Assembly (NCBI RefSeq): GCF_902459745.1
Contig: NZ_CABPSJ010000007.1
Location: 1 to 64,000, forward strand
Reading direction: 5' to 3'
Length of the DNA: 64,000 nucleotides
From: Pandoraea communis
GTDB taxonomy: Bacteria; Pseudomonadota; Gammaproteobacteria; Burkholderiales; Burkholderiaceae
The notes beneath the pieces are model-generated. The model worked only from the letters and a program-made list of their open reading frames with translations. It was not told the origin of the DNA and made no database searches. Below are positions 1,015 through 32,671 of the stretch, in pieces (position 1 is the stretch's first letter; each line of letters begins with the position of its first letter). The translations under genes and the position numbers were made by a program.

Positions 1015-1259
1015 TGGAGGGCGGTGTTGAGGTGAGAGGTACTGAGGGGCGTTGAAGAAGGCGAAAAGACGAAGCGAAGGGGGGAAGAAACCTAGCGAAA
1101 AGCATAAGAAAAACCCGAAACAGCGCCAACTCCTATACTGCAAATCACCGGCGTGGTGCAGTTGGAGGGGGTGTGCACCGAAAGCGTGCGGTAAGGATGG
1201 AAAAAATGCTCAGGCATGGATATTGCTGGATCTCGACACAGCAATCTGCGGAGAAGCGT

Positions 1260-2684: not shown

Positions 2685-2728
2685 GCCGCGTCAGCCGGAC
2701 ACGACAAACATCATAGCGAGAAGAGATC

Positions 2729-3724: not shown

Positions 3725-3728
3725 TGCC

Positions 3729-7249: not shown

Positions 7250-7423
7250 CAGACCTGCGTACTTGTGCCGAAGTTCCCAAACGATGCGTCTGGCAAATCA
7301 AGGCACCAGCCAAAGACATGGAGGCCTCATGAACATGTGCATAGCATTCGTAGCGAATCTTGAGCCGTCCAAACGAGTGAAGCCATGCAATCGAGCGCTC
7401 CACCGGCCGGCGCGCTTTCAGAA
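7250..7423 (-). pseudogene. IS5-type transposase remnant (C-terminal piece)
   Basis: Read on the minus strand this encodes RRPVERSIAWLHSFGRLKIR followed by YECYAHVHEASMSLAGALIC, the typical C-terminus of IS5-family (IS427-like) DDE transposases with the catalytic Glu in the VERS segment. The rest of the transposase is absent. The remnant overlaps the last bases of the M50-adaptor gene, whose stop is at 7418-7420, so an old insertion may have set where that protein ends. Confidence 0.75.
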
Positions 7424-9532
7424 CCCGACTTCTCGCTGCAATACCGCCGCCACGAAGCGAATCCCTTCGCCGGCAAAGCTCTGCCGTCCTGCGCCAAGAT
7501 GAACGGTGCCGGTAATCTCACGTCCAAGCCCCATGCCGCCGCTACATTGTCCAAACCGCACCTGCCATGTCGCGGCAAGCGGCACGAGTGCGTGCGTCTT
7601 CGCATTCTGCTCGGCCGGAATAGGCCCACCGTAGGTACTTGCAACCGACGGTGCATCGAGTGTCGCTACGTTGACCTTGTCGATCGCATCGATCACGCAA
7701 CGCCGCGCCCTTGATTCCGGCAGGCTTCCGACGAATGTCGCCGACTGCCCGGCCTCGAGTCGCGCCACGTCGTCTTCGCCCACATAGGCGTCTCCCTTGA
7801 CCGCACCGGGGGCGATCAAGTCGTAGATCCGCTCGCCGCGCGGCAGCCACGTGCCCGCCACTTGCGCATCGTCGTTTGTCTGAACCGTTCCGTCGAAGGG
7901 GGCGGTGATGGTCAATTGAGCGATCTGCGCCTGCAACCCGACCACGGCTTGCTTCGCGGCTTCCCATCGATGCGCAAGCGCCGTCCCTTGCTTTTGCAGC
8001 CGCTCATCGAACGATTGCTGGTCGACCTCCCAATGCAGCAGCGCCTCATTTGCCATCGCGGCCGCCAGTTGCGCCTCGAGATCGGGCGATACCAGCACGG
8101 CGAGCATCTCGCCGGCGCGCACGCGCTGTCCGTCGTGCGCGGGCGTCGGCTTGTCGGCGACATAGCCAGGGGCGATGGTGTAGAGCCCCTGTGCCCGTTG
8201 CGGCGCGAGTACGGCCGGGGCGCTCACGCCGGCATGCCATGGCAGCACGAATATACTGAGGAGCACGGCGGCGAGAATGGCGGTACGTCGCGTCTCCCGG
8301 CACCAGCGCAATTCGTCGCGCCGCGCCCAGGTCGCGCGCGCTTCCTGCCAGACCGGGCGCACGATGAACCAGCCAAATTCGACGCAGAACAGCAGCATGC
8401 CGAGCAGCTTGAAGAAGGCGTGATACACCACGAACGCGATCGACACGAACACCACGACCCGGTACAGCCACGTAGCAAACGAAAATGCGATCAGAAAACG
8501 CCGGCGAGAGGCGCGGCATGGCTCGGGTTGCGGATCGCCGAAGCCAAACAGCCGCTCGCGCAGCCACCAGCGGCCCAACGCGAACGCACGGTCGTGCAGG
8601 TTCGGCATGTCGAGCCAGTCGGAGAGCAGGAAGTAGCCATCGAATCGCATGAACGGACTCGCGTTGATCGCCAGTGTCGCCACCCAGGTCGTCGTGGCAA
8701 GCATGAACGCCCCGGCGCGAAGGGGACCGTCGGGCAACAGGCTCCACGCCAATGTTGCGAACGCCGCGAGCGCCAGCTCGCTGAGCATTCCCGCAGCGCC
8801 GATCCACAGCCGGTCGCGGCGAGCCGGCACTTTCCACGCTTCAGTGGTGTCCGTGTAGAGCACCGGCAACATCACCAGCAACGCCACGCCCATGGTGGGC
8901 ACACGGCAGCCGTGGCGCTGCGCCGTAAATGCATGGGCGAACTCGTGCAGAATCTTCGCGAAGCCCAGCGCGATACCTACGCCGATCAGGCCGCGCCAGT
9001 CGCTGTAGCCATGGAAGGTATGGACGAATTCGTCCCAGCGGCGCGATACCAAAATCAGTCCAGTCAGGGCGACGAGCGCCACAATCGCCCACGACACCGG
9101 GCGAAAGGCGAAGTGTACGTAGCGCTCGGCAGCGCGCAGGAAGGGCATCGGATGCCAGAGCGGAATCCGGATCATCAGGTAGTGCTTGAGCAGCCACATC
9201 GCGCGCGACGTCTGTTGGGCGGCCTTGTGCTGTTCGAGGCGCGCCGTGCCGGATGCCCCCGCGGACACCAGCAGATTCTGATGGCGCAGCATGCGCACCA
9301 GCGCCTCGAGATCGTCGAGCGAGACCGTCAGCGTGGTTTCCCGATTCACGCTGTCGACGATAGCGTGCATGTCGTCGAGTGGCCACCGCGCGAGCAGCTC
9401 GAAAGCGGGCCATCCGATCTGGAAGAAGCGGTTGGCCGCCGGATCGTGCAGCATCCAGGTCGGGGCGCCGTCGGGCGTGGACGCACCGGGCGAGAGCGTC
9501 AGTTCCTGACGAAGTTGCGGAAGTCGGGGCAT
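7418..9532 (-). CDS. PqqD-like / peptidase M50 / HlyD adaptor fusion protein
   Basis: This 704-residue protein has three parts. Residues 1-90 resemble a PqqD-like winged-helix domain. Residues about 110-470 are a polytopic membrane M50 (site-2 protease type) domain with the zinc motif HEFAH at 196-200 and the later NASPFMRFDGY segment that supplies the Asp ligand. The remainder is a HlyD-like periplasmic adaptor with lipoyl halves around GYVADKPTPAHDGQRVRAGE and ITAPFDGTV. I chose ATG 9532 (MPRLPQLRQEL), 20 bases after the upstream stop; in-frame starts up to 9622 overlap that gene. It is the last gene of the operon exporting the giant DUF4347 protein and could link processing to export. The C-terminus ends inside a transposase remnant, so the original tail may have been altered. 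Confidence 0.85.
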   Translation of the reverse strand: MPRLPQLRQELTLSPGASTPDGAPTWMLHDPAANRFFQIGWPAFELLARWPLDDMHAIVDSVNRETTLTVSLDDLEALVRMLRHQNLLVSAGASGTARLEQHKAAQQTSRAMWLLKHYLMIRIPLWHPMPFLRAAERYVHFAFRPVSWAIVALVALTGLILVSRRWDEFVHTFHGYSDWRGLIGVGIALGFAKILHEFAHAFTAQRHGCRVPTMGVALLVMLPVLYTDTTEAWKVPARRDRLWIGAAGMLSELALAAFATLAWSLLPDGPLRAGAFMLATTTWVATLAINASPFMRFDGYFLLSDWLDMPNLHDRAFALGRWWLRERLFGFGDPQPEPCRASRRRFLIAFSFATWLYRVVVFVSIAFVVYHAFFKLLGMLLFCVEFGWFIVRPVWQEARATWARRDELRWCRETRRTAILAAVLLSIFVLPWHAGVSAPAVLAPQRAQGLYTIAPGYVADKPTPAHDGQRVRAGEMLAVLVSPDLEAQLAAAMANEALLHWEVDQQSFDERLQKQGTALAHRWEAAKQAVVGLQAQIAQLTITAPFDGTVQTNDDAQVAGTWLPRGERIYDLIAPGAVKGDAYVGEDDVARLEAGQSATFVGSLPESRARRCVIDAIDKVNVATLDAPSVASTYGGPIPAEQNAKTHALVPLAATWQVRFGQCSGGMGLGREITGTVHLGAGRQSFAGEGIRFVAAVLQREVGF

Positions 9533-9552
9533 GCGTCTCGGTGCACGAAAGG

Positions 9553-11007
9553 TTACCAGCCGAGCCATTGACGCGCGAGCGTCAGCGGGCGGCGCAGAAC
9601 ATAGTAAATGGCGGGTACCCATGGCCCCCGGATGCGCGCCGTGCCCATGGCGCCGAGCGGCGCCTGCGGCATGTCCTTACCGTGCGTGTCGAAGCTCGCA
9701 CGCACGCGGTAGGCCAGCACACCTTCCGGTGTAGGTTCGGCGCGCCACGCAATGGAGTCGATGTGCGCGTCGTAGCTGGTCAGCGGCGAACTCTTGGGAT
9801 ACAGCGTCAGCGCCGCGCCGGGCTGCACATTGATGTTATCGGCCACCGGGAGCCACGCAGTCACTTCCACGTGGGCCGGATCGGCCAGCACCAGAATCTT
9901 CTCGCCTACGGCTACCGCCTTGCCTGTCCATTCGTTCGGATCGCTGAACACGGCCACGCCGGCACGCGTGGCGCTCACGCTCACGCGTGCGAGCTGGCGC
10001 GCGGTGTAGTCGAGCTCGACGCGGCTCTGGTCGAGCTTCCCCTTGCGCTCCGCCATGTCGAGTCGCGTGCGATCGTCGGTGACGGCGAGTTGCGCCGTCT
10101 GGCGAAACTCTTCCTGCGCGGTATCGAAGTTCTTGCGTGCGACGGCATAGCGCGATTGCAGCGTGGTGGCGTCGAGTCCGAGCAGCGCGGTGCCGGCCGT
10201 GACCGGCTGATTCGGCTTCACGTACAGATGATCGATCACGCCGTCGAGCGGCGCGCGCACCACGAAGGGGTCTTTCGGCGTTACCTCCGCCGGGGCGAGG
10301 ACGGTCAGCCGCATCGGAATCAGGCAGACGACGGCGATGGCGATCAGCACACGGCGTTGCAGCCGGCCGGGGCGCAGCACCTCGCGGGCACGCTCTAGCC
10401 AGCTCGCGCGCGGCGCGAACGCTTCGAACGCGTGCGCCCAGACTTGTCCGAGTTCGCTCAGCAGCGCGAAATCGGTGGCGTTCCAGGCGGCCTCGCGCGC
10501 GAACACGACGCCGCCGACGGAATGCCCCGCACGGTCGGTCAGCGGCAACCAGGCACCGTGCGCCGGCCACCACGCCTCCCATTCCGCAGCGACGTGAGGG
10601 GCGTGCGCTGCAAGATCCGCGGCGGTAAACGCCTGCACCCTCGGTTGCGCGGGCAGCACGCTCGCGTTTTGGCCTTCCACGTGGGCGGCGGCGTCTTTCG
10701 GCGGCACGTTGCGCAACCCTTTGGCGAGCGCCTTGCAAAGCGCACCGAGCCATTGCACGTAAGGCGCATTGGGATCGCTTTGCGGCAGACCGGAGACGGC
10801 GGCGACGTGGCCGGGGGTGTCGCCGCGCCACCATGCCGCCTGCCGGTAGGGCATGAGCGCCAGCGTCTCGTTGACGATCGTGAAACCGAGCGTGGTCTCG
10901 CTGGCGGCGCTGCGCGCGCGAACCGAGAGTTGCCACAGCAGCGCGAGTTGCTGGCCGTCGATGCGGACTTGCGGGTCGTCGTCCCCGGCCATCTGCGATT
11001 GCGTCAT
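9553..11007 (-). CDS. HlyD-type membrane adaptor with N-terminal GAF-like domain
   Basis: This 484-residue protein has a cytosolic N-terminal part (about 20-195) that looks like a GAF-type sensory domain, one transmembrane helix at about 219-238 (LIAIAVVCLIPMRLTVLAPA), and a periplasmic membrane-fusion part. The fusion part has the lipoyl half-motif FVVRAPLDGVIDHLYVKPNQ, a coiled-coil region of about 60 residues, and a beta-barrel segment. Adaptors of this kind bridge inner-membrane exporters and TolC. A sensory domain on the cytosolic side is uncommon and could gate secretion by a ligand. The gene follows a smaller adaptor by 4 bases, showing tight operon coupling. Confidence 0.85.
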   Translation of the reverse strand: MTQSQMAGDDDPQVRIDGQQLALLWQLSVRARSAASETTLGFTIVNETLALMPYRQAAWWRGDTPGHVAAVSGLPQSDPNAPYVQWLGALCKALAKGLRNVPPKDAAAHVEGQNASVLPAQPRVQAFTAADLAAHAPHVAAEWEAWWPAHGAWLPLTDRAGHSVGGVVFAREAAWNATDFALLSELGQVWAHAFEAFAPRASWLERAREVLRPGRLQRRVLIAIAVVCLIPMRLTVLAPAEVTPKDPFVVRAPLDGVIDHLYVKPNQPVTAGTALLGLDATTLQSRYAVARKNFDTAQEEFRQTAQLAVTDDRTRLDMAERKGKLDQSRVELDYTARQLARVSVSATRAGVAVFSDPNEWTGKAVAVGEKILVLADPAHVEVTAWLPVADNINVQPGAALTLYPKSSPLTSYDAHIDSIAWRAEPTPEGVLAYRVRASFDTHGKDMPQAPLGAMGTARIRGPWVPAIYYVLRRPLTLARQWLGW

Positions 11008-11011
11008 GACA

Positions 11012-11869
11012 TCACCGCGCGAACGTCGCCCAGCCGCTCATGCCCGGCAAGAGTTCCGGGGCGCTGCCGTTGAGGGCGGCAGTCACATCCACCGTCTGGG
11101 TCACCGGATCGACGCGCGCGCCGATCCGTGCGACCTTGGCAGGGTAGGTCTTGCCCACTTCGTCGACCTGCACGCTCAGCGCATGGCCAGCCTTGAGCCA
11201 GGCGAGCCACTTCGACGGCACGATCATCTTCAGCTCGAGATGACTGGTGTCCACAATCGTCAGCAGCGGCTTGCCGGGCTCGGCGAACTGCTGCGGCGCG
11301 GCGCTGCGCTTCGAAACGCGGCCGTCGAACGGCGCCGTAATGGCGCACTTGCGAACCGTCGCCTGCATGTAGGTCACATCGGCCGCCGTGGCTTTCTGCT
11401 TGGCCTGCGCCTGCTGCACTTCCAGGTCGCCAATCGAGCGCAGCGCCTGGAGCTTGCGGTTCGTTTCGAGCAGCTCGCGTGCACCGTCGGCATCGGCTTG
11501 CGCCTTGCGCAATTGCGCGTTGAAGAGCGAGCAGTCGAGCGTGACGAGCGTCTGCCCGGCACGGAACGCGTCGCCGTCGCGCAACGGCAACGAGGCGATT
11601 TTTGCCGAGATTTCGCTCGACACCTCGACCTGATCGCGCGATACGAGCTGAATGCGGATGCGCGAGTCGCTGCTGTCCGGTGACGCCGCACTCATTGCGG
11701 CCGGCGAGACGGGCGATCCCGGCAACACGGCCGGTGCCGGGGCACCCGCGGCTGGCCGAGCGGGGGCAGGCGCCGCCGCAGCGGTCTGGGGGGATGCTCC
11801 CGAAGCGGCTTGCATTGCCGCGAGCAGCGCGACGGCGAGCGCTGCCCGGTGTTTCCGGAACCCCGTCAT
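11012..11869 (-). CDS. HlyD-type periplasmic adaptor subunit
   Basis: This 285-residue protein has a signal peptide (MTGFRKHRAALAVALLAAMQ), an Ala/Pro-rich linker, then a compact membrane-fusion core: the first lipoyl half near ISAKIASLPLRDGDAFRAGQ, a short helical hairpin with ADADGARELLETNRK, and the second half CAITAPFDGRVSKR. It should be secreted to the periplasm. Its ATG overlaps the stop of the TolC-like gene (ATGA), so the two are translationally coupled. It is one of three adaptors in the operon, which is unusual, and may work as a separate layer between TolC and the membrane-bound adaptors. Confidence 0.88.
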   Translation of the reverse strand: MTGFRKHRAALAVALLAAMQAASGASPQTAAAAPAPARPAAGAPAPAVLPGSPVSPAAMSAASPDSSDSRIRIQLVSRDQVEVSSEISAKIASLPLRDGDAFRAGQTLVTLDCSLFNAQLRKAQADADGARELLETNRKLQALRSIGDLEVQQAQAKQKATAADVTYMQATVRKCAITAPFDGRVSKRSAAPQQFAEPGKPLLTIVDTSHLELKMIVPSKWLAWLKAGHALSVQVDEVGKTYPAKVARIGARVDPVTQTVDVTAALNGSAPELLPGMSGWATFAR

Positions 11870-13512
11870 TTCTGCACCGCCCCTGTGGGCAAAGTTGCTG
11901 CGGCCGCGATGGTCGGACCCGGCCGGGCGCTTGCCGCAACCGGGATACCCTGCGCCGCAACCGCGTCCCAGCGCTTCTGCTCCTCGCTGATCGACTGCGT
12001 GAGCGACGCGATATCGTTGCCGTCGAGCTTGGCCGGCAGCGGGTCGAGGCCCAGCGTGGAGAGCATCTGGCCGTAAGCGCTCTCGAGTTCGCCGTAGCTC
12101 TGGTAGAGGCGCAATTCGGACATCATGGCTGACGTCGCCACGCGAATCTCCTCGAGCTTGCCCTTTGCCTGGGTCTGCGTGGCGTTGTGCGTCTGTTCGA
12201 GGATTTGCTGATCGACGTCGTTGAGTCGCTTGAACAGATTGAACTGGCGGGTCTTGGCACCCAGCTCGCTGCGTGCGACGTGAACCTGCGTGAGCACGGC
12301 CATGCTGAGCGCCATGCGCTGCATTTTCGCCACGTCGAGCTGCGCCTGCGCCGTGCCGCGAATGTTGCCGGCGTTGAGCAGATTGAGCAGGTTCCAGCTC
12401 ACGCTGATGCCGGCCGAGCGCCACGCGTTGTACACGAGGAAGCTGTTGCTGTCGTAGTGCGCGCCGACGTTGAACTCGATACCCGGGAGCAACTTGGCCA
12501 TCGCCTTATGCGTTTCATTGACGCTGATTCGCTCGTTGTAGCTCGCCTCGACGAGTTCCGGGCGGCGCTGCAACGCCATATCTTCCATGGCCGGCATGGC
12601 CATGTCGAAGGCCGGCACGCGAAATGCCCCGGTGGTGGCAAGCGTGAAGTCCTTGCCCGGGTCCAGGTTCATCAACGAGGCCAGACGGGGCTTGGCGACT
12701 TCGAGCTGGTCGCGCACGGCTTCGAGCTGGCGCATCAGATCCAGTAGCGAGCGTTGGTAGTTGAGCGCGTCGACGGGCGAGCGCAACCCCTGTTGCTGCG
12801 TGGTGCGTGAGTCGTCGAGCGCGCTCTGGGCTTCGTCGAGCAGCGGTGCGATGCGATCGCGCAGACGCTGTGCGCCCACCGCTTGCCAATAGGCTTCGCG
12901 CACCTGCTGCATCATCAGTTGCACGACCTTGCGACGGCGCTGTTCGAGCACGAGCAGCCGGTCGGCCTGTTGCGTCGCTTCAAAGTAGCTGACGCCGAAG
13001 TCGAGAATGTTCCACGACAGGTTCAGATCTGCGGTGCGGCTGTTCTTGTCGGTGGAGAACGACGGCACGAGCGATTGCTCACGCGTGTAAAGGCCTTCCG
13101 AAGACGAGGCGAGCTCGTGATTGCGGTTCGTGTAACCGGCCGCCGCGGTCAGCTTGGGCAGCAGGTTGAAGTTCGACAGATCGAGCTGGCGCTGCCCGAG
13201 CGCCTCTTCCATCATCTTGAGGCGATGGTCGAGGTTGTAGCGGATGGCGCGCGCCATTGCCTCGTCGAGCGTAATCGGCCCGGTCACCGGCTGTTGATCC
13301 GCGAACATGGTGGTTCGGTCGGCCTGGGCCGTTTGGGCACGTTCGGCGTCGGAGAACGGTACGGGCTTGATTGCGCAGCCGGACAGCGACACGACGGCGA
13401 GCGCGACCGCGAGCAGGGCGGGACGCGGCATGCGTCCCCGGAACGACATGGTTTTCACTTCGACGGATCTCTTAGGAAGTTGAGCGAGTTGAGTCAGGAA
13501 ACGATGTGTCAT
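11866..13512 (-). CDS. TolC family outer-membrane factor
   Basis: This 548-residue protein has a lipoprotein-type signal ending SLSGC (Cys46 from the first start) and the long helical, internally repeated pattern of TolC proteins: ITLDEAMARAIRYNLDHRL, then a second domain with MALQRRPELVEASYNERI. It would form a trimeric channel across the outer membrane and periplasm. The start at 13512 overlaps the stop of the giant gene (ATGA) and has GGAG upstream, so I used it. Starts at 13449 or 13431 would give a more normal signal-peptide length. Its place between the giant secreted protein and the adaptors identifies it as that protein's exit channel. Confidence 0.9.
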   Translation of the reverse strand: MTHRFLTQLAQLPKRSVEVKTMSFRGRMPRPALLAVALAVVSLSGCAIKPVPFSDAERAQTAQADRTTMFADQQPVTGPITLDEAMARAIRYNLDHRLKMMEEALGQRQLDLSNFNLLPKLTAAAGYTNRNHELASSSEGLYTREQSLVPSFSTDKNSRTADLNLSWNILDFGVSYFEATQQADRLLVLEQRRRKVVQLMMQQVREAYWQAVGAQRLRDRIAPLLDEAQSALDDSRTTQQQGLRSPVDALNYQRSLLDLMRQLEAVRDQLEVAKPRLASLMNLDPGKDFTLATTGAFRVPAFDMAMPAMEDMALQRRPELVEASYNERISVNETHKAMAKLLPGIEFNVGAHYDSNSFLVYNAWRSAGISVSWNLLNLLNAGNIRGTAQAQLDVAKMQRMALSMAVLTQVHVARSELGAKTRQFNLFKRLNDVDQQILEQTHNATQTQAKGKLEEIRVATSAMMSELRLYQSYGELESAYGQMLSTLGLDPLPAKLDGNDIASLTQSISEEQKRWDAVAAQGIPVAASARPGPTIAAAATLPTGAVQK

Positions 13513-16500
13513 GCGCGGCTCCGCGCGGGGCCGAGCGAGCCTTCGGCGGGCGTCGCGACATGCAGCGCCGCGCGGGCATTGGCGAATTGGGTGGCAAGCG
13601 ACGCCTTCGCGGCCGGCAACGCCGCATGCTCCGGTGCCGGGGCGACGTTGCGACCCTGCGGATTCGCGCCGTTCGTTGCGCGATCGGCCTTCTTCGCGTC
13701 GAAATGCAGCGTCACCTCGCGGCGCGTAAGATTGCCTGCCGCGTCACGCACGAGCAGCGTCACCTGTACCGAATGCACGCCCGCCGGCGGGGTGCCCGTG
13801 AGTACGTCGCGCGCTGCGTCGAAATGCAACCACGGCGGCAATGGCGCACCGTCGGCCAACGTGATGACCACCTGATTGTCGTGCGCGGCGGCGCCCGGCG
13901 CCGAAGACGGCACCTGAAGCAGCGGGGCGATCGGTAACGCGAAGCCGTTGCCGGTCTGACGCACGGGGCTCACATCCACGGCCGGCAGCGTGCGCGGGGG
14001 CGGCGTGGTTTGCGCGTCATGCGGCATCACGATCGGGTCCAGGGCGCTCACATGCGTGTTGCCCAGCGACGCGTCGATTGCACCGTGAGCCGCAAACGTG
14101 AACGTCGCGCGCGGCGACACAATACCGATACCCCGCATGGTGTCCAGCGCATTGAGCACAATTGTCGGATTCGAAACGGCGTCGTTCTGTCCGTTCAGGT
14201 CGGAGAGAATCAGCGGATTGCGATGATCGGAAACCGCAGGCGGTGCGACGACATTGGGCACGCCGACAGGCCCCGGCTGTGGCTTCGGCAGGATCGGCGA
14301 GCCGACTGGGTCCTGGCCGGCGTTGATCTGCAACGTGCGCGTGAGCGGTGCGCTGTTGGCGGCGGCGTCGCTCAGCACGAACGTCAAGGTGCGCGTGCCG
14401 TCCTTGTTCGAAATCTGCGTATCGCGATAGGCGACGGCCTGAATGGCGGCTTGCCACTGCGCGAGCGTCGCGGTGCCGCTCGCCGAACGCAGCGTTAGGA
14501 CGCCGCGCACGGCATCGTAGTTGGACGCAATGTCGCCCGTCGCTGCGCCGGGGGCGAAGGTCAGCACGTCATGCGCCGGATCGAAGCCGCCGCTGATGGC
14601 CACCGTGGCCGACGTGGGCGGCGTGTCGTTTCGGTCGACCAGCGTAATGCCCGTGCCGACGGAAACGCTCGAGGTCGGCTTTCCATCGGCGGTATAGCGC
14701 AGCGCCGCGTTGTCGGCGCTGAGGAGCGGCGTCTGGTGCGTGGCCGTGACGCTCACATCGCGACTGAACGAAAGACTGGACTTGGTACCGTCGTTCACGC
14801 TGAAGCCGATGGAGCGGGTTGCCGTGTTGGGCGTGACGGCGGTATCGGTGTACGTCACCGCGCGCAATGCGGCCTGCCACTGGGCGACGGTGGCTGTCGC
14901 ACCGGCCGAGCTCAGCGTAAGCATGCCGGTCGAGGCATTGTATGCGCCCATGATATTGCCCATCGATCCGTCGTTGCGGAAACCGAGCACGTCCTCGCCG
15001 GCATGGAAACCCGTGCCGATCTGCACGACGGCCGAGGCGAGCGTACCGTTGTCGGCGTCCGACAATGCAATGCCCGTGTCGATCGCCACCGGCGTGGAGG
15101 CAACGTTGTCTCCGGCCACGAACGAGGCGGTCCCGGTGCTTCTGCTTGAGATCAGCGGCGCCTGGTCGGGGACGGTAATCCCGACGCTGCGCGAATGGAC
15201 GGCGCTCGTCTTCACGCCGTCGTTGACGGCGAAGCCGATAACGCGCGTGGCCCGATCCGGCGAGCTTGCAGAGTCGGTATAGGTGACCGCGCGCAGGGCG
15301 TTCTGCCATTGCTGCAGCGTGGCGCTGGAACCGACCGACGTCAGCGTCAGCGTGCCGGTAGCGGGGTTGTAGCTGCCCGTAACGTTGCCCATCGTCAGGC
15401 CGTCGTTGAGGAAGCTCAGCGTATCCTCGCCGGCGTGGAACCCGGTGCCGATCTGCACGGTGGCCGAGGCCAGCGTTGTGTTGTCGAGATCGCTGAGGAC
15501 GATGCCCGTATCGACGGCAATCGGCGTGGACGGCCCGGTTTCGGCCGACGTGAAAACGGCCGCACCGCTGTTCGTGGAATGCACGATCGGGGTCTGATCG
15601 GTGTTGGCCACGCTGACGGTTCGCGTAATCGGCGCGCTGGTCTTGGTACCGTCACTGACGGTAAAGCTGACCGTGCGCGATACCAGCGCGGGCGTGATCG
15701 CCGTGTCGGTGTAGGTCACGGCGTGCAGCGCGGCCTGCCACTGTGCGAGCGTGGCGCTCGCACCCGACGAGGTCAGCGTCAGCGTACCGTGCGCGGCGTC
15801 GTACGACGCGGTGATGTTGCCCATCGTGGCCGCGTTGTTGATGAAGCCGAGGACATCCTCGCCTTGATGGAAGCCCGCGCCGAGCTGCACGGTGGCCGAA
15901 CTGAGCGTGGCGTTGTCGAGGTCGGACACCACGATGTTGGTGTCGATCGCCACTGGCGTGGAGACGGTGTTGTCTCCTGCCACGAATGCGGCGCTGCCGG
16001 TGCTGCCGGAGGTCAGCAGCGGGGTCTGGTCGGTCGGCGAGACCGCGATGGAGCGCGTGAGCACGTTGCTGAACTGCGAGCCGGCGTTCAGCGAGAAGCT
16101 GACGGTGCGTGTCGCACTGTTGGGCGTGACGCGCGTGTCGGTATAAGCGACCGTGCGCAACGCGGCCTGCCATTGACCGAGCGTGGCCGAGCCGCCGCTG
16201 GAGGTCAGCGTGAGCACGCCCGTCGACGGGCTATAGCTGCCGGTGATGTTGCCCATCGTCAGGCCGTCGTTGACGAACGACAGCACGTCTTCACCGGTGT
16301 GCAGGTTGCCCGTGATCGCGACCACTGCGCTGTCGACCACGTTGCCGAGCGGGTCCGCGACCGTCAGGTTCGGATCGATCGCCACCGGCAACGCGGCGCT
16401 GTTGTCGCTCGCCACGAAGCTCACGCTGCCGGTACTGGCGCTGGCCAGCGCCGGAGCGGAGCTGATGACGTTCACGCTGTGGTCGAGCGCGGTGCTGGTC

Positions 16501-19500
16501 TTCACGCCGTCGCTGATGACGATGCTGATCGTGCGCGTGCCGAGCGCGGCGTTGACGGGGGCCGAGAACTGCAGGTTGTCGAGCACGGTCTGCCATTGCG
16601 CGAGCGTGCCGCCGGTCGAGGTGATCGTCAATGTGCCGCTGACGCCGTCGAAAGTCATGGTCATGCCGTTGGTCAGCGTCGAGAGCGGCAAGCCGAAGCC
16701 GAGCGTGTCGCCGCTTTGCATTCCTGAGCTGATCCGGGCCGTGATCGACATCGACACCAGCGTCGAGCCGCTCACGTTCAGGTCGGTCAGCGTGATGCCG
16801 CTGTCGATCGACGTGGCCGTCTGGCCCGGCAGGTAGTTCAAGCTGCTGCCCGACGCGCCGAGCACCGGGGTCTGGTGGGTCGCGTTCACCACGATGACCT
16901 TGCTCGAACTGGCGCTGGACTTCGTGCCGTCGTTGGCGATGAAGGTGATGACGCGGTTGGCGGTTTGCGGCACGGCGGCCGTGTCGGTGTAGGTGATCGA
17001 GCGCAGCGCGGCCTGCCACTGCGCGCGGCTCGCGCTACCGGCCGAGGTCAGCGCGAGGGTGCCGGTGCCGGCGTCGAAGTGCGCCTGGATGTCGCCGAAC
17101 GAGCCGCTGCCGAGCGCGAGCACATCCTCGCCGCTCCGATAGTTGCCGGTGATCGCCACCGTGGCCGACGCCAGGGTGGGGCTGTCCGAGTCGGTCAGCG
17201 TCACGCTGGCATCGACCACGATCGGCGTGGACGGGGCATTGTCGGCCGAGGTGAAGGTAGTACTGCCGCCGGAGTTGGTCACGATCGGCGTCTGGTCGGT
17301 CAGCACCACGTCGATGGCGCGCTGGAACGAGGCGCTGACCTTCACGCCGTCGGTGACGACGAAGTTGATGACACGCTGCGTGGTGCCGGGCGTCGCGGCC
17401 GAATCGGTAAACCGGATCGAGCTCAGCGCGGACTGCCATTGCGCGAGCGTGGCCGAGCCGCCCGTCGAGGTCAGCACCAACACGCCGTTCGAGTACGTGC
17501 CCGCGATGTTGCCCATCGTCGAGCCGTCGTTGGCGAACAGCAGCGTGTCGCCAATCGAGTCGTAACCGCTCGCGATCGCGATGTTGGCCTGGGTCAGCGT
17601 GCTGTTGTCGCGGTCCGAGAGCGTGATGCCGGAATCGATGACGATCGGCGTGGCCGGGACGTTGTCGCCCTGCGTGAACGTGGCGCTGCCTGACGAACCG
17701 CGGATGATTGGCGTTTGATCGGTGTCGGCCACGGTCACGGTGGAGGTGACTGCCGCGCTGAGCTTGGTGCCGTCGCTCACCACGAAGCTCACGGTGCGCG
17801 CACCGGTGCCCGGCGTGATGGCCGTCGAACTGTAGGTGACGGCCTGCAGTGCGTTCCGCCACTGCGCGAGCGTGGCTACGTTGCCCGACGAAGTCAGCGT
17901 CAGCACACCACCCGTATAGCTCGCCAGAATATTCCCGTACAGCGCCGCGTTTGTGTTAGTGAACGCGAGCACGTCTGTCGGCTCGTAATGGCTCGTGAGC
18001 GTCACCACGGCCTGCTGAAGCGGCCCGCCATCGAGATCGGAGACGGTGATGGCGTTGTTGACCGGCACCGGCGTCGAGGCGACGTTGTCGCCGGTCACGA
18101 ACGCGGTGGTATTGCCGCCGGCGCCGAGCACAGGCGTCTGGTCGGTGGCCGTGATTGTGATGGAGCGCGTCGCGACGTTGCTCGCCGCGGTGCCATCGTT
18201 GAACGAGAACGACACCGTGCGCGTGGTGGTCGAGAGGGTGGGCGAGGTCTGCGTGCTGAAGAACGTAACCGACTGCAGCGCGGCCTGCCAGTTGGCGATG
18301 CTCGGCGAGCCGGAACCGGTCAAGAGCAGAATGCCGGTCGTGCCGTCGTAGCTGCCGGTGATGCCGTTCTGCGCGACGAACGACAACTGGTCGCCGCTCT
18401 GCACATTGGTGATGCGCACCGTTGCGGTGACCGCCGAGGCCGAGCCGGGATCGGAGATCGTAATGCCCGGATCGACCGCCACCGCGGTGCCGCCCACACC
18501 GTTGTCGCTCGAGGCCCAGGCGGCGATGCCGCCGCTGGTGGTCACGCTCGGGCTGTTGTCGATGTAGGCGAGGTTGTTGAGCGTGGGCTGGAAGGGGCCG
18601 GAGTCGTTCAGGTCGATCAGCGAGAACGAGACGATATTGTTGAAGGCGCTGCCGAGCTGGTTCTGGTTCGACACGGGGCCAGTGAAGTTGCCGATGCCCG
18701 CTGTGGCAAGCGGGATCAGGGCGCTTTTTGAGCCGTTCGCGTAGTTGGCCTGTATGTACAGGTCGCCGTTGAACGAACTGAGGTCGAAGCTCTGCAGGCT
18801 GAACACGTGGCCGTTGGAGAGCGAGATCGTGACGTTGCGGATCGGCGAGGCGCCGTTTGCATTGATTTCCAGCACGCCGTCCGTGGGCGACACGGAGATG
18901 TCGCTCGGGTAAGGCCAGTTCGAGGCGTTGTATGCGAAGGTATTGGTCGGCCGGTCCAACGTGTAGACGAGGCCGTTGAGCGTGAACTGCGACTGGCCGA
19001 TCGCCTGCCAATTGTTGGCGGCCGGGGAGTCGTAGGTTTCCGTCGTCACGCCGAGCAGTTCATTGAACTGCGCCTGGGCGCTGGTCGATTCGTTCAGCGC
19101 GGTGCGGACGTTGCCGACCTGATATTCGAGCGTCCAGTTGCCCCCCAGCGCAGCCGAACCGGTGGCGTCGGTGGAGGCGGCCACATTCAGGTGCGTGAGG
19201 GCGGCGATCTTTTGCACCAGCGCCTGACCGTCGGCCTGTTGGGCGACGTCGCAGCCGTAGATCAGGAAATCGCCGCCGGCTTTCATCGCCGCGCCGATTT
19301 GCGCGAGCTGCGTGCCGTAGCCGGAAAAGTCGCTGTTGGTGAGCCAGGTCGACCCGACTTGAATCATCCCGTCCGAGCCGTGCGAGATCAGGCTGATCGA
19401 TTCGACACGTTGGTGCGCCTGGAGGTACTGGGCGATCTGCGCGAGGCCGTCCGTATTGGCGTCGAGCACCACATACTGCGTGCCTGCGGGCAAGCCTGCG

Positions 19501-19931
19501 ATCAGCACCTGATAGTTGGCCACGCTCGGATCGATGAACACGACCTGCGTTTGCGTAATTTGCGTGGCGTGGACGGCGCTTGGCGCATCGTTCTGTGCGG
19601 CGCCGGTCTGCGACTTGTCCGGCGCGCTCGCCCCGGAAGCGCGGGCGTCGCCTGCAGCGTTCGTCGCGGCCGAGGCGCTCTGGTCGGGCGGCGCACTCGC
19701 CGTCGCGTTGCCGGACGCACGAACCGACGTATCCGTGTGCGTCTCGGTGGCACTGTGACTGTCGGTGTGAGCCGGGTCCTGGGCGTGCGGTTGCGCGGCG
19801 ACAGCCGCTACCGACGCGTCGTAGACCACGCGGGGTTCGAGTGCGAGCAACAACGGGGAAGCCGCAACGCGCGGCCCGGGGCGGTCGGCAATTTGCTGCT
19901 CGCGCGCGAACCACTGTTTGATGATCTTCAT
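13509..19931 (-). CDS. giant LEPR / DUF4347 repeat protein, probable secreted adhesin
   Basis: This 2140-residue protein starts MKIIKQWFAREQQIADRP (AAGGAG upstream of ATG 19931). Residues 31-34 are LEPR within LALEPRVVYDAS, the N-terminal motif of LEPR-type large exported proteins. After a low-complexity Ala/Thr/Ser stretch comes a DUF4347 domain (about 125-290) with SLISHGSDG (His184) and LIYGCDVA (Cys227). Ten cadherin/Ig-like repeats of about 140-144 residues follow, each with the pattern DQTP...GDN...STP...GEDVL...TMGNI...LAQWQAAL. A final Ig-like domain contains LPPWLHFDAARDVLTGTP. There is no classical signal peptide, as expected for one-step export. The operon partners (TolC, three adaptors) should export it. 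A role in adhesion or biofilm is inferred from the architecture. Confidence 0.9.
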   Translation of the reverse strand: MKIIKQWFAREQQIADRPGPRVAASPLLLALEPRVVYDASVAAVAAQPHAQDPAHTDSHSATETHTDTSVRASGNATASAPPDQSASAATNAAGDARASGASAPDKSQTGAAQNDAPSAVHATQITQTQVVFIDPSVANYQVLIAGLPAGTQYVVLDANTDGLAQIAQYLQAHQRVESISLISHGSDGMIQVGSTWLTNSDFSGYGTQLAQIGAAMKAGGDFLIYGCDVAQQADGQALVQKIAALTHLNVAASTDATGSAALGGNWTLEYQVGNVRTALNESTSAQAQFNELLGVTTETYDSPAANNWQAIGQSQFTLNGLVYTLDRPTNTFAYNASNWPYPSDISVSPTDGVLEINANGASPIRNVTISLSNGHVFSLQSFDLSSFNGDLYIQANYANGSKSALIPLATAGIGNFTGPVSNQNQLGSAFNNIVSFSLIDLNDSGPFQPTLNNLAYIDNSPSVTTSGGIAAWASSDNGVGGTAVAVDPGITISDPGSASAVTATVRITNVQSGDQLSFVAQNGITGSYDGTTGILLLTGSGSPSIANWQAALQSVTFFSTQTSPTLSTTTRTVSFSFNDGTAASNVATRSITITATDQTPVLGAGGNTTAFVTGDNVASTPVPVNNAITVSDLDGGPLQQAVVTLTSHYEPTDVLAFTNTNAALYGNILASYTGGVLTLTSSGNVATLAQWRNALQAVTYSSTAITPGTGARTVSFVVSDGTKLSAAVTSTVTVADTDQTPIIRGSSGSATFTQGDNVPATPIVIDSGITLSDRDNSTLTQANIAIASGYDSIGDTLLFANDGSTMGNIAGTYSNGVLVLTSTGGSATLAQWQSALSSIRFTDSAATPGTTQRVINFVVTDGVKVSASFQRAIDVVLTDQTPIVTNSGGSTTFTSADNAPSTPIVVDASVTLTDSDSPTLASATVAITGNYRSGEDVLALGSGSFGDIQAHFDAGTGTLALTSAGSASRAQWQAALRSITYTDTAAVPQTANRVITFIANDGTKSSASSSKVIVVNATHQTPVLGASGSSLNYLPGQTATSIDSGITLTDLNVSGSTLVSMSITARISSGMQSGDTLGFGLPLSTLTNGMTMTFDGVSGTLTITSTGGTLAQWQTVLDNLQFSAPVNAALGTRTISIVISDGVKTSTALDHSVNVISSAPALASASTGSVSFVASDNSAALPVAIDPNLTVADPLGNVVDSAVVAITGNLHTGEDVLSFVNDGLTMGNITGSYSPSTGVLTLTSSGGSATLGQWQAALRTVAYTDTRVTPNSATRTVSFSLNAGSQFSNVLTRSIAVSPTDQTPLLTSGSTGSAAFVAGDNTVSTPVAIDTNIVVSDLDNATLSSATVQLGAGFHQGEDVLGFINNAATMGNITASYDAAHGTLTLTSSGASATLAQWQAALHAVTYTDTAITPALVSRTVSFTVSDGTKTSAPITRTVSVANTDQTPIVHSTNSGAAVFTSAETGPSTPIAVDTGIVLSDLDNTTLASATVQIGTGFHAGEDTLSFLNDGLTMGNVTGSYNPATGTLTLTSVGSSATLQQWQNALRAVTYTDSASSPDRATRVIGFAVNDGVKTSAVHSRSVGITVPDQAPLISSRSTGTASFVAGDNVASTPVAIDTGIALSDADNGTLASAVVQIGTGFHAGEDVLGFRNDGSMGNIMGAYNASTGMLTLSSAGATATVAQWQAALRAVTYTDTAVTPNTATRSIGFSVNDGTKSSLSFSRDVSVTATHQTPLLSADNAALRYTADGKPTSSVSVGTGITLVDRNDTPPTSATVAISGGFDPAHDVLTFAPGAATGDIASNYDAVRGVLTLRSASGTATLAQWQAAIQAVAYRDTQISNKDGTRTLTFVLSDAAANSAPLTRTLQINAGQDPVGSPILPKPQPGPVGVPNVVAPPAVSDHRNPLILSDLNGQNDAVSNPTIVLNALDTMRGIGIVSPRATFTFAAHGAIDASLGNTHVSALDPIVMPHDAQTTPPPRTLPAVDVSPVRQTGNGFALPIAPLLQVPSSAPGAAAHDNQVVITLADGAPLPPWLHFDAARDVLTGTPPAGVHSVQVTLLVRDAAGNLTRREVTLHFDAKKADRATNGANPQGRNVAPAPEHAALPAAKASLATQFANARAALHVATPAEGSLGPARSRA
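14310..18560 (-). repeat. ten tandem coding repeats of about 420-432 bp
   Basis: The motif Asp/His-Gln-Thr-Pro or a close variant recurs at about 18560, 18143, 17721, 17297, 16877, 16457, 16032, 15599, 15167 and 14738, giving a period of 417-433 bases and ending near 14310. Units differ enough at the DNA level to be stable, but the last four or five (about 14300-16050) are visibly closer to each other, which suggests later duplication of that part. Confidence 0.9.
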
Positions 19932-19997
19932 GGCAATGCTCTCCTTACAGTTGCCTGCGCCAGATAACGAGCTATTGATGCTGGAATGGGGGGGGCT

Positions 19998-20019
19998 GCC
20001 GACGCCGGTGTGCGTCGGC
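19998..20019 (-). promoter_or_regulatory. hairpin just upstream of the giant gene start
   Basis: GCCGACGC and GCGTCGGC form a perfect 8-bp stem around a six-base loop, 67 bases before the start codon. It would fold in the mRNA leader; there is no T-run, so termination is unlikely. Confidence 0.5.
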
Positions 20020-20173
20020 GGGCACATGAATTCAGGCGCGCGTAAGTGGGCGTCTTCCTGCGAATGTCGCAGAGGCGCCATCACTTCGGGATCTTCCTGT
20101 TAGCAGATAAGCCGGTGCCGTTTGGCAGGCGAGCCGGCGGATACATGCGGTGCGCCGAAGGCGGGGAGCTAGT

Positions 20174-20257
20174 CCTATCGTCGGTCGGCGAGACGATAGG
20201 CATCTGTCCGGGCGCTGCACTTCGCCCGTCGTGCAGGGTAGAGCTAACACTTTGCGT
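20174..20257 (-). promoter_or_regulatory. structured leader segment of the giant-protein operon
   Basis: On the minus strand this contains, in order, ACGCAAAG (20257-20250), a hairpin CUGCAC/GUGCAG (20236-20231 with 20220-20215), a competing hairpin CGGGCG/CGCCCG (20228-20223 with 20214-20209), and a perfect 9-bp hairpin CCTATCGTC/GACGATAGG (20200-20192 with 20182-20174, given here in plus-strand order). The two middle stems share bases and cannot both form, the layout of a switch. The leader from 19932 to about 20500 is long and has no supported gene. Confidence 0.4.
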
Positions 20258-20443
20258 TTCCCTTGGGCGTTGGCCCCGACGCCCAGTCGTTCGCTCACGC
20301 ATGGCTCGTGGCCGCGTGCGTGGAGCCATTTATCGTTATGTCGTCGGGCTGCGGCCGGTTCCCCCCGTATCGCGCCCTACCCCTTGTTGCAAACGCCACA
20401 GCGGCCGCGTTTTCCCGTGTCGGGTTTAGTTTTGTCCAGACAA

Positions 20444-20459
20444 TCCGAACATGTTCGGA
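20444..20459. promoter_or_regulatory. perfect 16-bp palindrome, candidate operator
   Basis: TCCGAACATGTTCGGA is fully self-complementary and lies about 510 bases upstream of the giant gene start, next to an AT-rich block (20505-20535). A TTGACG hexamer on the minus strand (20486-20481) lies just before it. The regulator is not known to me. Confidence 0.45.
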
Positions 20460-20683
20460 ACTTTCTCTTCTTTGGCAGGTCGTCAATCTAGCCGAATTTA
20501 ATGACATTCGGTAAAAAAACTATAAAAAATGATAGGGTATTTTCCCGCAGTCTGGGGTTGACCGATTTGGCTCCGGCGAACCGTCCGCTGCGACCGGTTC
20601 GGCAATGGTCGAGCGAGACGTGGGTTGGCATGGTCAGCGTGTTTGCGCGGATGTAAAAACGCGACGTCAAGGGTGGTCGAGCA

Positions 20684-21012
20684 AGCATCGCGCCAGAGAA
20701 GCTGATGCGGGCGATGCTGCAAGTACTGTACTCGACTCGCAGCGAACGGATGCTGATGGAGCGGATTTCCTACAACATGCTGTTTCGCTGTTTCGCTGGT
20801 TTGCCGGCTTGGCGATGGACGACGCCGTGCGGGATGCCTCGACCTTCAGCAACAATCGCGACCGCTTGATGGCCCGCGACGTCCTGGTGGCGCTGGTCAA
20901 TGAGACGGTCGAGACGGCGCACCAACGGCTACCTGTCGGGCGAGCATTTCAGTGTGGACGGCCCGCTCATTCACACGTGGGCCGCTCACAAGCCGGACGG
21001 GAGTCATCGTGA
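20684..21012 (+). pseudogene. IS5-type transposase remnant with frameshifts
   Basis: Read in three frames, this gives SIAPEKLMRAMLQVLYSTRS, ERMLMERISYNMLFR, then FAGLAMDDAVRDASTFSNNR, then NGYLSGEHFSVDGPLIHTWA, in the order found in the N-terminal half of IS5-family transposases. The first shift comes from a direct 8-bp duplication, TTTCGCTG at 20783-20790 and again at 20791-20798; removing one copy restores the frame. A second shift lies near 20915. The catalytic C-terminal half and the IS ends are missing, so it is dead. Confidence 0.8.
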
Positions 21013-21016
21013 AATG

Positions 21017-21040
21017 AAAAAAGAGGCGCCGAAGCGCCCC
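21017..21040 (-). terminator. rho-independent terminator after puuD
   Basis: On the minus strand GGGGCGC, TTCG loop, GCGCCTC, then TTTTTT. It lies 35 bases after the puuD stop and abuts the transposase remnant. Confidence 0.9.
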
Positions 21041-21074
21041 AACATGGGTCCAGCAAGACGGCCGGTCGTGGCCG

Positions 21075-22280
21075 TTATTGTTGTGCGCCGCCGTTGAACC
21101 ATGCCGCGATTTTCTGGCGTTCGTCGTCGGTCATCTGGGTCACGTTGCCCAGCGGCATCGACTTGAGCGCCACGGCTTGCTGATAGATACGCTGAGCGTT
21201 CTGAGAGATCTCGGCCGGTGTATCGAACATCACCCCCGCCGGAGCGCTGCCCATCATCGTCGGCTTGGCCGAGTGGCAGGTGGCGCAGCGTTGCGTCAAG
21301 ATCGGCTGGATCTCCGAGAGCTTCACGGCCGGGGCCGCAGCTTCACCGTGCACACCGGCGGCCGGTGCCGGGGCGGGGCGCGGTGCGGCGAAGACGGCAA
21401 CGCCGGCGAGCAGCGCGGCGCCAACCACCGGCAGCGCGTACAGGTTCTTGCCGGAATGACGCAGCACGAAAAACTGACGGATCATCGCGCCTGCGGCCAT
21501 GATGATCGTGAGTATTACCCAGCTGTACGGATTGCTGTACGTGAACGCATAGTGGTTGCTGATCATGATGAACACGACCGGCAGCGTGAAATACGTGTTG
21601 TGCACCGAACGCTGCTTGCCCAGCTTGCCCCAGATCGGGTTTGGGACTTCGCCCTTCGACAGGGCATCGACGCTCTTGCGCTGCCCCGGAATGATCCAGA
21701 AGAACACGTTGGCCGACATCGACGTCGCCATCATGGCGCCCACGATCAGGAACGCGGCACGACCCGCGAAGATATGCGTCGTGGCATAGGTTGCCGCGAC
21801 CACGAACAGCGCAACGCCAATCCCCAGCACGCGCTCGTTCTTGCCCAGCATGCGGCACAGGAAGTCATAGACGAACCAGCCGCCGATCAGGAACGCCACC
21901 GCGAGGCCGACGGCCTGACCCGGTTGCAGATCCATTACATTCTTATCGATCAGGTAAGTCTGCGGTTGCAGCAGATACAGCACACAGAACAGGGCAAAGC
22001 CCGAGAGCCAGGTCGTGTACGACTTCCACTTCGACCAGTGCAGGTCTTCCGGCATCTGCGGCGGTGAGTTCAGATACTTCTGGGCGTGGTAAAAACCGCC
22101 GCCGTGCACCGACCACATCTCACCGAACACGCCTTTTTGCCGGTCTTCCGCCGCCTTGGGCGGCTTCAGACCGTTGTCCAGCATCACGAAATAGAACGAC
22201 TCGCCAATCCAGGCAATGGCTGCCACCACATGCAGCCAGCGCAGCAACAGATTGACCCAGTCGGTAATAAACGCTTCCAT
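21075..22280 (-). CDS. puuD: urate hydroxylase PuuD
   Basis: This 401-residue inner-membrane protein begins MEAFITDWVNLLLRWLHVVA and has about eight hydrophobic helices followed by a C-terminal cytochrome c domain with the haem motif CATCH and a later Met (near KSMPLGNVTQM). PuuD oxidises urate to 5-hydroxyisourate using the membrane electron chain in place of a soluble uricase. A GAGGAG site precedes ATG 22280. The gene lies 41 bases after uraH, whose product uses its reaction product, so the two form an operon. Confidence 0.95.
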   Translation of the reverse strand: MEAFITDWVNLLLRWLHVVAAIAWIGESFYFVMLDNGLKPPKAAEDRQKGVFGEMWSVHGGGFYHAQKYLNSPPQMPEDLHWSKWKSYTTWLSGFALFCVLYLLQPQTYLIDKNVMDLQPGQAVGLAVAFLIGGWFVYDFLCRMLGKNERVLGIGVALFVVAATYATTHIFAGRAAFLIVGAMMATSMSANVFFWIIPGQRKSVDALSKGEVPNPIWGKLGKQRSVHNTYFTLPVVFIMISNHYAFTYSNPYSWVILTIIMAAGAMIRQFFVLRHSGKNLYALPVVGAALLAGVAVFAAPRPAPAPAAGVHGEAAAPAVKLSEIQPILTQRCATCHSAKPTMMGSAPAGVMFDTPAEISQNAQRIYQQAVALKSMPLGNVTQMTDDERQKIAAWFNGGAQQ

Positions 22281-27088: not shown

Positions 27089-27180
27089 ATGTTATTGACG
27101 CACGCTCGACATTTCGCCGCGAATTGGGTATTTTCGTCCCGCCCAAGCTCAGGATCGAGACTTTGCCCGTGACATCCCCA

Positions 27181-32170: not shown

Positions 32171-32671
32171 GTGCTGGAGGCTCTGAAGGGACGTTAGTCG
32201 CGGGATGTTTTCACGGTCTCGTCCTGCGCGAGTTTTTCCGTGTCGGGGGAGACGGCGGTGCGGCAGTGGCGATCAACAACACGGCGGCAGCAAGGAAGGG
32301 GCCGAGGAGAGGGGGGCAGAGGTTGCGCTGAGGGCGCAGCGCGCATGCATGGGGCGTAGACAGGCGGATAGGGGTCATGAGAAGGCACTGGGGAAGTGAT
32401 AGCGCCCCGGGAGGGCAAGAGAGGCATCTCCATCCGGGGGATGATGGCCGCAAACGGCGTCTGAAGGTCTTCAGGCAACTTCCGCCAAATTCAGCGGCTT
32501 TGGGGGGAGCCTACGGGTCGGCGAGCACCGGCACTCCCTTTAGGCGCCGCATTTCGGAGCCTTCACAAGCGCCGGGGGCGACTCAGGGCGCGTGACACGC
32601 ATCAGTGCTAAAATGTCGGGTTTCGTGGCGCAATTTTGTGCCGCCGCACTTCATTTCCCCGGATACCGCCT
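32171..32671. other. 500-base gap without recognised gene
   Basis: No frame here resembles a known protein and none has a convincing ribosome site. A minus-strand frame near 32250-32350 includes a hydrophobic stretch (FLAAAVLLIATAAPP) but is otherwise low-complexity. The promoter of the ABC-F gene should lie near 32590-32630, where CTAAAAT resembles a -10 element. Confidence 0.5.

Follow-up and report, generated by a model that had tools for sequence, protein, structure and literature searches.

A five-gene operon without an ABC transporter in Pandoraea communis as a probable export machine for its own giant LEPR/DUF4347 protein

Five adjacent genes in the 64,000-nucleotide stretch of Pandoraea communis DNA analysed here (the window) form an operon. 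We take its products, with modest confidence, to be a machine dedicated to exporting the operon's giant surface protein, and this machine to be a sister, without SecA2 and without ABC transporter, of the system of Kamneva, Poudel and Ward (2015; PMC4452313). All five lie on the minus strand: the gene of the giant, the putative export substrate (13509..19931; 2,140 aa with a leader, a DUF4347 domain, ten repeats of ~142 aa and a C-terminal motif), followed by those of a TolC-type outer-membrane factor (11866..13512; 548 aa; Pfam OEP, 7e-30), a small HlyD/RND-type periplasmic adaptor (11012..11869; 285 aa), a GAF-HlyD adaptor (9553..11007; 484 aa) and a PqqD-like/M50/HlyD fusion (7418..9532; 704 aa), with Pfam HlyD_3 matched in all three adaptors and M50 in the fusion. 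Direct reading of the junctions revealed ATGA overlaps between the giant and TolC genes and between the TolC and small HlyD genes, a gap of 4 bases before the GAF-HlyD gene and one of 20 bases before the M50-HlyD gene if the latter starts at 9532 (its longest open reading frame begins at 9622). Coordinates and junctions thus bear out the one-strand operon with ATGA overlaps and gaps of 4-20 bases of the original prediction. The statement that no ABC transporter is present here also held, as the operon contains no ABC gene and the two ABC ATPase genes elsewhere in the window (27124-28728 and 32636-34267) encode part of a Bmp/BPD_transp_2 importer and an ABC-F-like protein. In the operon, none of the five reading frames is interrupted and the catalytic residues are intact.

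The five-gene arrangement is not due to chance, because the same order recurs across classes. A tblastn search with the M50 protein matched 75 plasmid records, and the same order is found on a conjugative plasmid of Burkholderia anthina (M50 81% identical) and on Niveispirillum and Kosakonia plasmids, as well as with a split giant in Azospirillum and with a split adaptor in Citrobacter. When GTDB contigs were scanned by HExxH and NxxPxxRFD patterns and the best 80 of at least 291 relatives were kept, the complete order was seen at 30 of the 59 loci with room for it. Locus L013 of Paraburkholderia kururiensis is an example with all five genes in this order. Taken singly, and again among loci with room, GAF-HlyD immediately precedes M50 at 67/75, the small HlyD is in place at 48/74, TolC at 45/67 and a long open reading frame before TolC at 33/59, the remaining loci having the giant downstream or TolC elsewhere. 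Within the window's genus, a full-length strong M50 match occurs in 5 of 32 genomes, the window's included, and this patchiness, together with the plasmid-borne relatives, suggests transfer of the operon.

The M50 fusions form two groups, clade A (the window's) and clade B, which were first cut by score and then by a tree (quick method, unrooted) in which one branch (SH-aLRT 100) parts 109 clade-A from 20 clade-B proteins among 129. The M50 alignment (A2, from which 12 of 80 loci had been dropped as frameshifted or partial), DUF4347 and SecA_DEAD were run against 299 genomes of the phylum, the M50 search scoring three candidates per genome, so that M50 copies are a lower bound among the matches listed; SecA matches were then listed for the 67 genomes with an M50 fusion. 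A secondary SecA lies within 5 kb of 20 of the 26 clade-B places, at 108 to 1,101 bases, versus none of the 85 clade-A places (Fisher p 4e-17, relatedness ignored), the 85 including a protein of intermediate score (G083:C117) that is left out of the 84 places used below. The six clade-B places without a nearby SecA belong to genomes with a single SecA (G041, G053, G068, G088, G181 and G293). Three clade-B plasmid operons (L224, L225 and L226) carry DUF3467, HlyD, PqqD-M50 and SecA genes, with GAF shown in L225; among the genes listed, a giant precedes the operon in L225 and L226, and HlyD and TolC genes lie behind it in L226. In a Thalassospira operon on the B branch, M50 and the next HlyD gene lie too close together for a SecA2 gene to fit between them.

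In the parts of PMC4452313 available to us, loci with a secondary SecA_DEAD protein, M50/HlyD, GAF-HlyD and HlyD and without ABC are described, SecA is proposed as the ATPase motor and M50 as a possible pore, and no substrate is named; the words 'LEPR' and 'adhesin' are absent from the main text. The GAF-HlyD and M50-HlyD proteins of the operon are homologous to those of the clade-B loci found here, which were the sequences compared, rather than those of the 2015 paper itself. As far as that module is described in these parts, clade A resembles it in GAF-HlyD, M50-HlyD, a further HlyD, sometimes an OEP and no ABC, but differs in having no secondary SecA nearby, a TolC and a small HlyD in the operon, and DUF4347 substrates. 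The novelty is narrowed accordingly: clade A is a branch without SecA2 of a system that was described, solely from genomes, in 2015. The original prediction knew of no experimental description, and we found none in the open-licence literature either, although a genomic description of the sister system thus exists; the same literature did not turn up a prior report of the pairing with LEPR giants, of the peptidase nature of DUF4347 in giants or of the split into two clades.

The M50 part of the fusion has the hallmarks of a site-2 peptidase, HExxH and NxxPxxxxD in a multi-pass membrane protein: the zinc site HEFAH (residues 196-200; 8933..8947, minus strand) was rightly called intact, and the second metal-site element NASPFMRFD (residues 290-298; 8639..8665, minus strand) is likewise intact. 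Its Pfam M50 score is 27.1 bits in the protein scan versus a cut-off of 27.2, and 28.1 in the genome search. HExxH is present at 80/80 loci and NxxPxxxxD at 79/80, an invariance that is partly built in because these loci were chosen by HExxH and NxxPxxRFD patterns, the 40 proteins found by HMM giving the fairer count. Among NCBIfam models the daptide intramembrane metalloprotease comes closest (E 7e-45, 154 bits versus a cut-off of 300); of three clade-B M50 proteins scanned, two match this model from its first position as well as a PqqD model, and all three match YydH/LiaK. Pfam PqqD is passed by three plasmid clade-B proteins and by 0 of 69 clade-A M50 proteins at E 0.01, and clade-A N-termini align to clade-B N-termini with an hhalign probability of 97.8% (E 1e-12). 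The predicted PqqD-M50-HlyD composition therefore stands for M50 and HlyD, while the PqqD-like label of the window's N-terminus is a putative one, by homology to clade B. On the basis of the daptide and YydH/LiaK matches and of this homology, a putative leader-reading domain, leader-cutting protease and duct adaptor in one protein would be the most economical reading. A protease that reads and cuts a leader would also fit the nearest models of M50 better than the 'pulling' of the substrate that had been considered. In the GAF-HlyD adaptor, a hydropathy peak (membrane segment) at ~216-243 lies between the GAF-like N-terminal part and the HlyD part; of its predicted label HlyD was recovered, whereas GAF was detected in 4 of 27 clade-A adaptors, the window's own not among them (46 of 72 adaptors were left out of alignment A4).

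The giant starts with a leader, ALEPRVVYDAS, whose LEPR (residues 31-34; 19830..19841, minus strand) sits within a short hydrophobic stretch; the N-termini of the giants have no classical hydrophobic core. Of the predicted LEPR/DUF4347 label, DUF4347 is clear (Pfam 1.8e-56) and LEPR is marginal, since model NF012209 gives 17.8 bits in the genome search, over its NCBIfam cut-off of 17, and 12.4 bits, below it, in the protein scan. By prediction and homology, the DUF4347 domain (19053..19544, minus strand) is a clan CD (caspase/CPD-like) cysteine peptidase, with the fold and a dyad of His184 (19382-19380) and Cys227 (19253-19251), in a protein with one cysteine in total. The fold was compared via a second look among the folds returned by Foldseek, and alignment A3 was made after truncated domains had been removed and one second DUF4347 copy and L090 dropped. 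As far as the available parts of the sources go, the T6SS effector Tce1 (PDB 9QPE, PMC13323088) and the TcdB-type CPD share this fold and the His-Cys dyad, and by our own count the DUF4347 His and Cys align with Tce1 H186 and C240. Unlike these, the predicted DUF4347 peptidase is part of a giant that has a putative export operon to itself.

Protein comparison delimits ten repeats of ~142 aa each (residues 494-1876; 14304..18452, minus strand); a tandem array at the DNA level was not found in the gene, and the RTX-like motif GGxGxD occurs 0 times in 2,140 aa. The otherwise dissimilar ends of the giants have in common a G[KR]xx[LF]xxQ[LFIV]-like element that starts 19-45 residues from the end, represented in the window by KASLATQF (residues 2109-2116, ~25 residues before the end; 13584..13607, minus strand). 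This pattern is present within the last 70 residues of 35 of 41 giants upstream of TolC (one per locus, from 45 rows including artefact frames), on which it was defined after the data had been seen; the rate among shuffled sequences, internal windows and the ends of other ORFs is 1.6-2.5%. Scored only on giants upstream of TolC, which left 11 from the 40 loci of a second set, the strict pattern recurs in 4/11, and a profile trained on the first set finds its protein-wide best site within the last 70 residues in 8/11, three of the 11 coming from close relatives of training loci (88-95% in M50). We consider the motif probably real, as judged from these sequence comparisons.

The machine is paired with LEPR giants. 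Among the matches listed for the 299 genomes, clade-A M50 is found in 55, DUF4347 in 70 and both in 50; in 16 genomes DUF4347 occurs while none of the scored candidates is an M50 fusion of strong or intermediate score. A DUF4347 domain lies within 25 kb on the same contig at no fewer than 37 of the 84 clade-A places (from a DUF4347 list reaching E ~6e-41), a lower bound because contigs are short and giants long. At the first loci, the leader pattern LE[PQS]Rxx[FY][DS] precedes the domain in 25/25 DUF4347 ORFs. Among the 2,308 remaining ORFs of 200 aa or more, it is found within the first 200 residues of 5, of which four are long proteins from these loci and the fifth is again the window's. A fair test is given by the second set only, because the pattern had been widened after LEQR and LESR variants were seen: at its 40 loci, 12 of 600 ORFs have the pattern, all of 1,060 to 3,125 aa, and the 12 DUF4347 ORFs comprise nine with the exact pattern, two with variants (LEARMMFD and LEPRIMLD) and one with its start cut. 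Similarly, the NCBIfam LEPR model is over cut-off in 12/12 clade-B genomes, 0/4 chosen genomes without the system and 1/14 named control genomes. Of the five clade-A genomes without DUF4347, three clearly carry a LEPR giant on the contig that bears M50, the fourth is marginal by model with LEQRFVFD in a 2,163-aa ORF adjoining M50, and the fifth has no LEPR giant. The genome search for conserved M50-HlyD/DUF4347 neighbourhoods proposed at the outset thus yielded a conserved pairing and no ABC gene inside the operon at 80 loci. We read the M50/HlyD set as the probable machine and the LEPR leader as its putative targeting signal.

Secretion types are defined largely by their motors. The original prediction had named a dedicated ABC transporter in close relatives as the finding that would speak against it; ABC ORFs turned up within 10 kb on either side at 10 of the 80 related loci, none of them inside the operon, and most are housekeeping by eye (branched-chain amino acid, molybdate-like, oligopeptide, sugar and LolD/MacB-like). 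The exceptions are a Serratia locus (L063) with an adjoining LapB-like (type I-like) ABC and an HlyD-like ORF on the opposite strand, and L067, with an ABC-HlyD-TolC set ~5 kb downstream that looks by eye like MacAB-type efflux. SecA was found neither within up to 10 kb on each side of the 80 loci nor at 40 further clade-A loci, with a probe that is sensitive enough because it detects the clade-B paralogues; the 40 loci hold two short ABC-like ORFs (159 and 167 aa) at locus ends or the like. Among the identified neighbours near 85 loci, no ATPase recurs except ABC genes of mixed kind (10 loci).

The window's genome (100% complete according to its table) has one SecA. Four of its ABC_membrane proteins are over cut-off: MsbA, a cyanophycin-associated ABC and a pair for which no cut-off is reached among the 25 models listed. 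None of the four reaches the HlyB, LssB or PrtD cut-off (the PrtD-type model being applied to this genome only), and type I ABC proteins at these cut-offs and SecA2 are absent from it. Among the 55 clade-A genomes, LssB-type ABC is over cut-off in 31 and HlyB-type in 13; a secondary SecA at E 1e-8 is absent from 38 and SecA2 present in 17, counting a split match in G124 as SecA2. All three are missing from 16/55, the window's included. We judged 11 of these 16, by eye among the matches listed, to be free of a full-length sub-cut-off match: in seven the best HlyB-model match starts no earlier than model position 127, G119 has no match, and G054, G185 and G259 were judged by E-value only (1e-101 to 1e-104). 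Because these 16 genomes have none of the three, at least some hosts appear to be without a recognisable type I ABC and without SecA2. The motors that remain are housekeeping Sec, an unrecognised ATPase or no nucleotide-driven motor at all, and the data favour none of them. Of the export route originally proposed, the dedicated ABC-less operon with M50 in the inner-membrane slot stands; the borrowing of an ATPase from elsewhere, be it a type I ABC or a second SecA, is not supported, because the window's genome has neither at the cut-offs used. In clade-A genomes with an LssB-type or HlyB-type ABC such borrowing is possible.

On the reading that we favour, the cytoplasmic PqqD-like domain of M50-HlyD would bind the leader LE[PQS]Rxx[FY][DS] of the giant, by analogy with RiPP recognition domains, and the M50 site, which is related to RiPP proteases that process leaders, would cut the leader in the membrane and so commit or free the chain. 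As their families suggest, the HlyD part of the M50 protein, GAF-HlyD and the small HlyD may form a periplasmic duct to TolC. Energy would come from outside the operon, most likely from housekeeping SecA/SecYEG because a SecA paralogue fills that slot in clade B; this is the weakest step. Outside the cell, the DUF4347 peptidase may cut the giant itself, leading to anchoring, maturation or release. A bolder version, which we put forward tentatively and think doubtful as it stands, is that clade A moves proteins of 1,000 to several thousand residues through both membranes without a dedicated nucleotide-driven motor, with the intramembrane protease and its leader-reading domain as entry gate and the driving force coming either from the housekeeping Sec motor or from folding and self-cleavage outside. 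Several observations count against the export-machine reading: nothing links housekeeping SecA to the operon, the leader is unlike a classical Sec signal peptide, and TolC and the small HlyD lie away from M50 at part of the loci. Also to be weighed against it are the LssB-type (31) and HlyB-type (13) ABC proteins and the SecA2 (17) of the 55 clade-A genomes, a nearby DUF4347 domain listed for 37 of the 84 clade-A places, and the strict C-terminal pattern recurring in 4/11 giants of new loci.

Other explanations make different use of the same parts. SecYEG alone could carry the giant over the inner membrane, HlyD/TolC lifting it from the periplasm and M50 acting as a leader-cleaving site-2 protease; this overlaps with the dedicated machine that we favour and differs from it by a periplasm-fed duct. 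A single SecA in the window's genome, the 38 clade-A genomes without a secondary one and the homology of the clade-B motor to SecA would accord with such two-step export, but we regard it as unlikely in view of N-termini that have no classical hydrophobic core and of PqqD domains, which read leaders in the cytoplasm and so fit an unexported leader. Type I secretion in its ordinary form, with an ABC encoded elsewhere doing the work and M50 as an accessory protease, would explain the HlyD and TolC architecture and could draw on the LssB-type and HlyB-type proteins of 31 and 13 clade-A genomes and on the gene sets at L063 and L067. It is improbable, given that no HlyB, LssB or PrtD cut-off is reached in the window's genome, that 16/55 clade-A genomes have no LssB-type, HlyB-type or SecA2 protein, and that the giant has no GGxGxD motif. 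RTX repeats are common, not universal, in type I substrates.

The pairing with giants across two clades and the missing inner-membrane pump among the five genes make it very improbable that export or sensing by the machine is confined to the cleaved leader or some other small molecule, in the manner of tripartite efflux, with the giant leaving by an unrelated route, even though the nearest M50 models act on small RiPP peptides and the adaptors resemble RND/MFS efflux adaptors. Finally, we give hardly any credence to the operon being a relic or inactive here. Its patchiness in the genus (a full-length strong M50 in 4 of the 31 other genomes), two in-frame stops in one of these four and a transposase-like remnant upstream would agree with decay, but the five frames are open with their catalytic residues, and no interruption is seen in the M50 genes of the 81% and 89% relatives either.

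If the motor-less version were true, LEPR-XLL would be the targeting signal that marks a secretion type in its own right, one that solves its energy supply in two ways, through SecA2 in clade B and with nothing of its own in clade A. A widespread, partly plasmid-borne operon without its own motor, next to a sister with a SecA paralogue, would be a natural test of what drives giant-protein export in Gram-negative bacteria. Proteins annotated 'LEPR-XLL' or 'DUF4347' would gain a candidate machine, LEPR-XLL a candidate role as targeting signal of PqqD-M50-HlyD systems, and DUF4347 one as built-in caspase-type peptidase.

Type I export of giant adhesins (LapA, SiiE and RTX proteins; general knowledge and parts of PMC7730722) is alike in HlyD, TolC and a giant repeat protein, and unlike in that the window's operon has no dedicated ABC, its giant no RTX repeats (GGxGxD), PqqD-M50 is found instead and the N- and C-terminal signals are others. 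The M50 core is shared with RiPP leader-processing peptidases (daptide, NF041824; YydH/LiaK, NF058609), and in clade B the N-terminal PqqD-like part as well; unlike these, the window's M50 is fused to HlyD, has a giant as partner and remains at 154 bits versus the equivalog cut-off of 300. Three candidates for the same kind of system were set aside on the parts of the sources available: the Big proteins RSP/RSP2 of IncHI plasmids, of which RSP2 carries DUF4165 and both leave via a type IV system (PMC8730810), DDxP adhesins, tied to an ordinary T1SS (PMC7730722), and Methylococcus secretome proteins, ordinary T1SS candidates (PMC4257694). A riboswitch 5' of the giant, guessed from sequence, was dropped after an Rfam search of 19700-21100 gave no credible match (best E 0.97). 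Recurrent neighbours at the 85 loci were tail-collar proteins (8 loci), LysR-type regulators (8), a GNAT-like ORF (7) and two further clusters (17 and 7 loci).

A transposase-like remnant of the DUF772 type lies directly upstream of the five-gene operon (window positions 20605-21012), and on the basis of this remnant and the patchy distribution of the operon, we consider that the operon may have been acquired via a mobile element. M50 fusions (37% identity) are also carried on enterobacterial plasmids from Citrobacter, E. coli and Hafnia (plasmid matches H22-H47 and locus L009), and inspection of a single plasmid of this group, a Citrobacter IncHI1B plasmid, revealed tellurite-resistance genes near the operon. 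Among the related loci examined, only that of Serratia marcescens (L063) has a type I-like ABC transporter adjoining the system: a LapB-like type I ABC gene and an HlyD-like ORF are located directly downstream, on the opposite strand.

Within the GAF-HlyD adaptor (window 9553-11007), few stretches are as strongly conserved across the 27 sequences compared as the final 20 residues (RRP....RQWLG), in which R, R, P and R are invariant. In some DUF4347 domains (loci L044, L049, L052 and L074), the His of the predicted catalytic dyad is replaced by Glu; in L052, the Glu-bearing copy also lacks the Cys and is followed by a second DUF4347 copy.

Small tail-collar ('tail fiber') genes, grouped as one recurrent neighbour family, lie near the operon in 8 of the 85 loci compared (e.g. 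L006, L008, L010 and L082), with a run of three in Kosakonia, and a GNAT-like ORF is found nearby in seven loci. Possibly, these neighbours encode co-exported or modifying partners.

On the SecA2-linked sister branch, clade B, all four plasmid operons inspected (L224-L226 and L011) have a gene for a small DUF3467 protein preceding the HlyD gene. Giants with DUF4347 or Ig-type domains reach ~10,900 to 14,900 residues (G037:C1:2731072, G265:C1:2499932 and L225), and the genomes encoding them also possess a SecA2-type system. Elsewhere in the window, genes for circularly permuted ATP-grasp, Alpha-E and transglutaminase proteins are arranged consecutively at 1173-4535.
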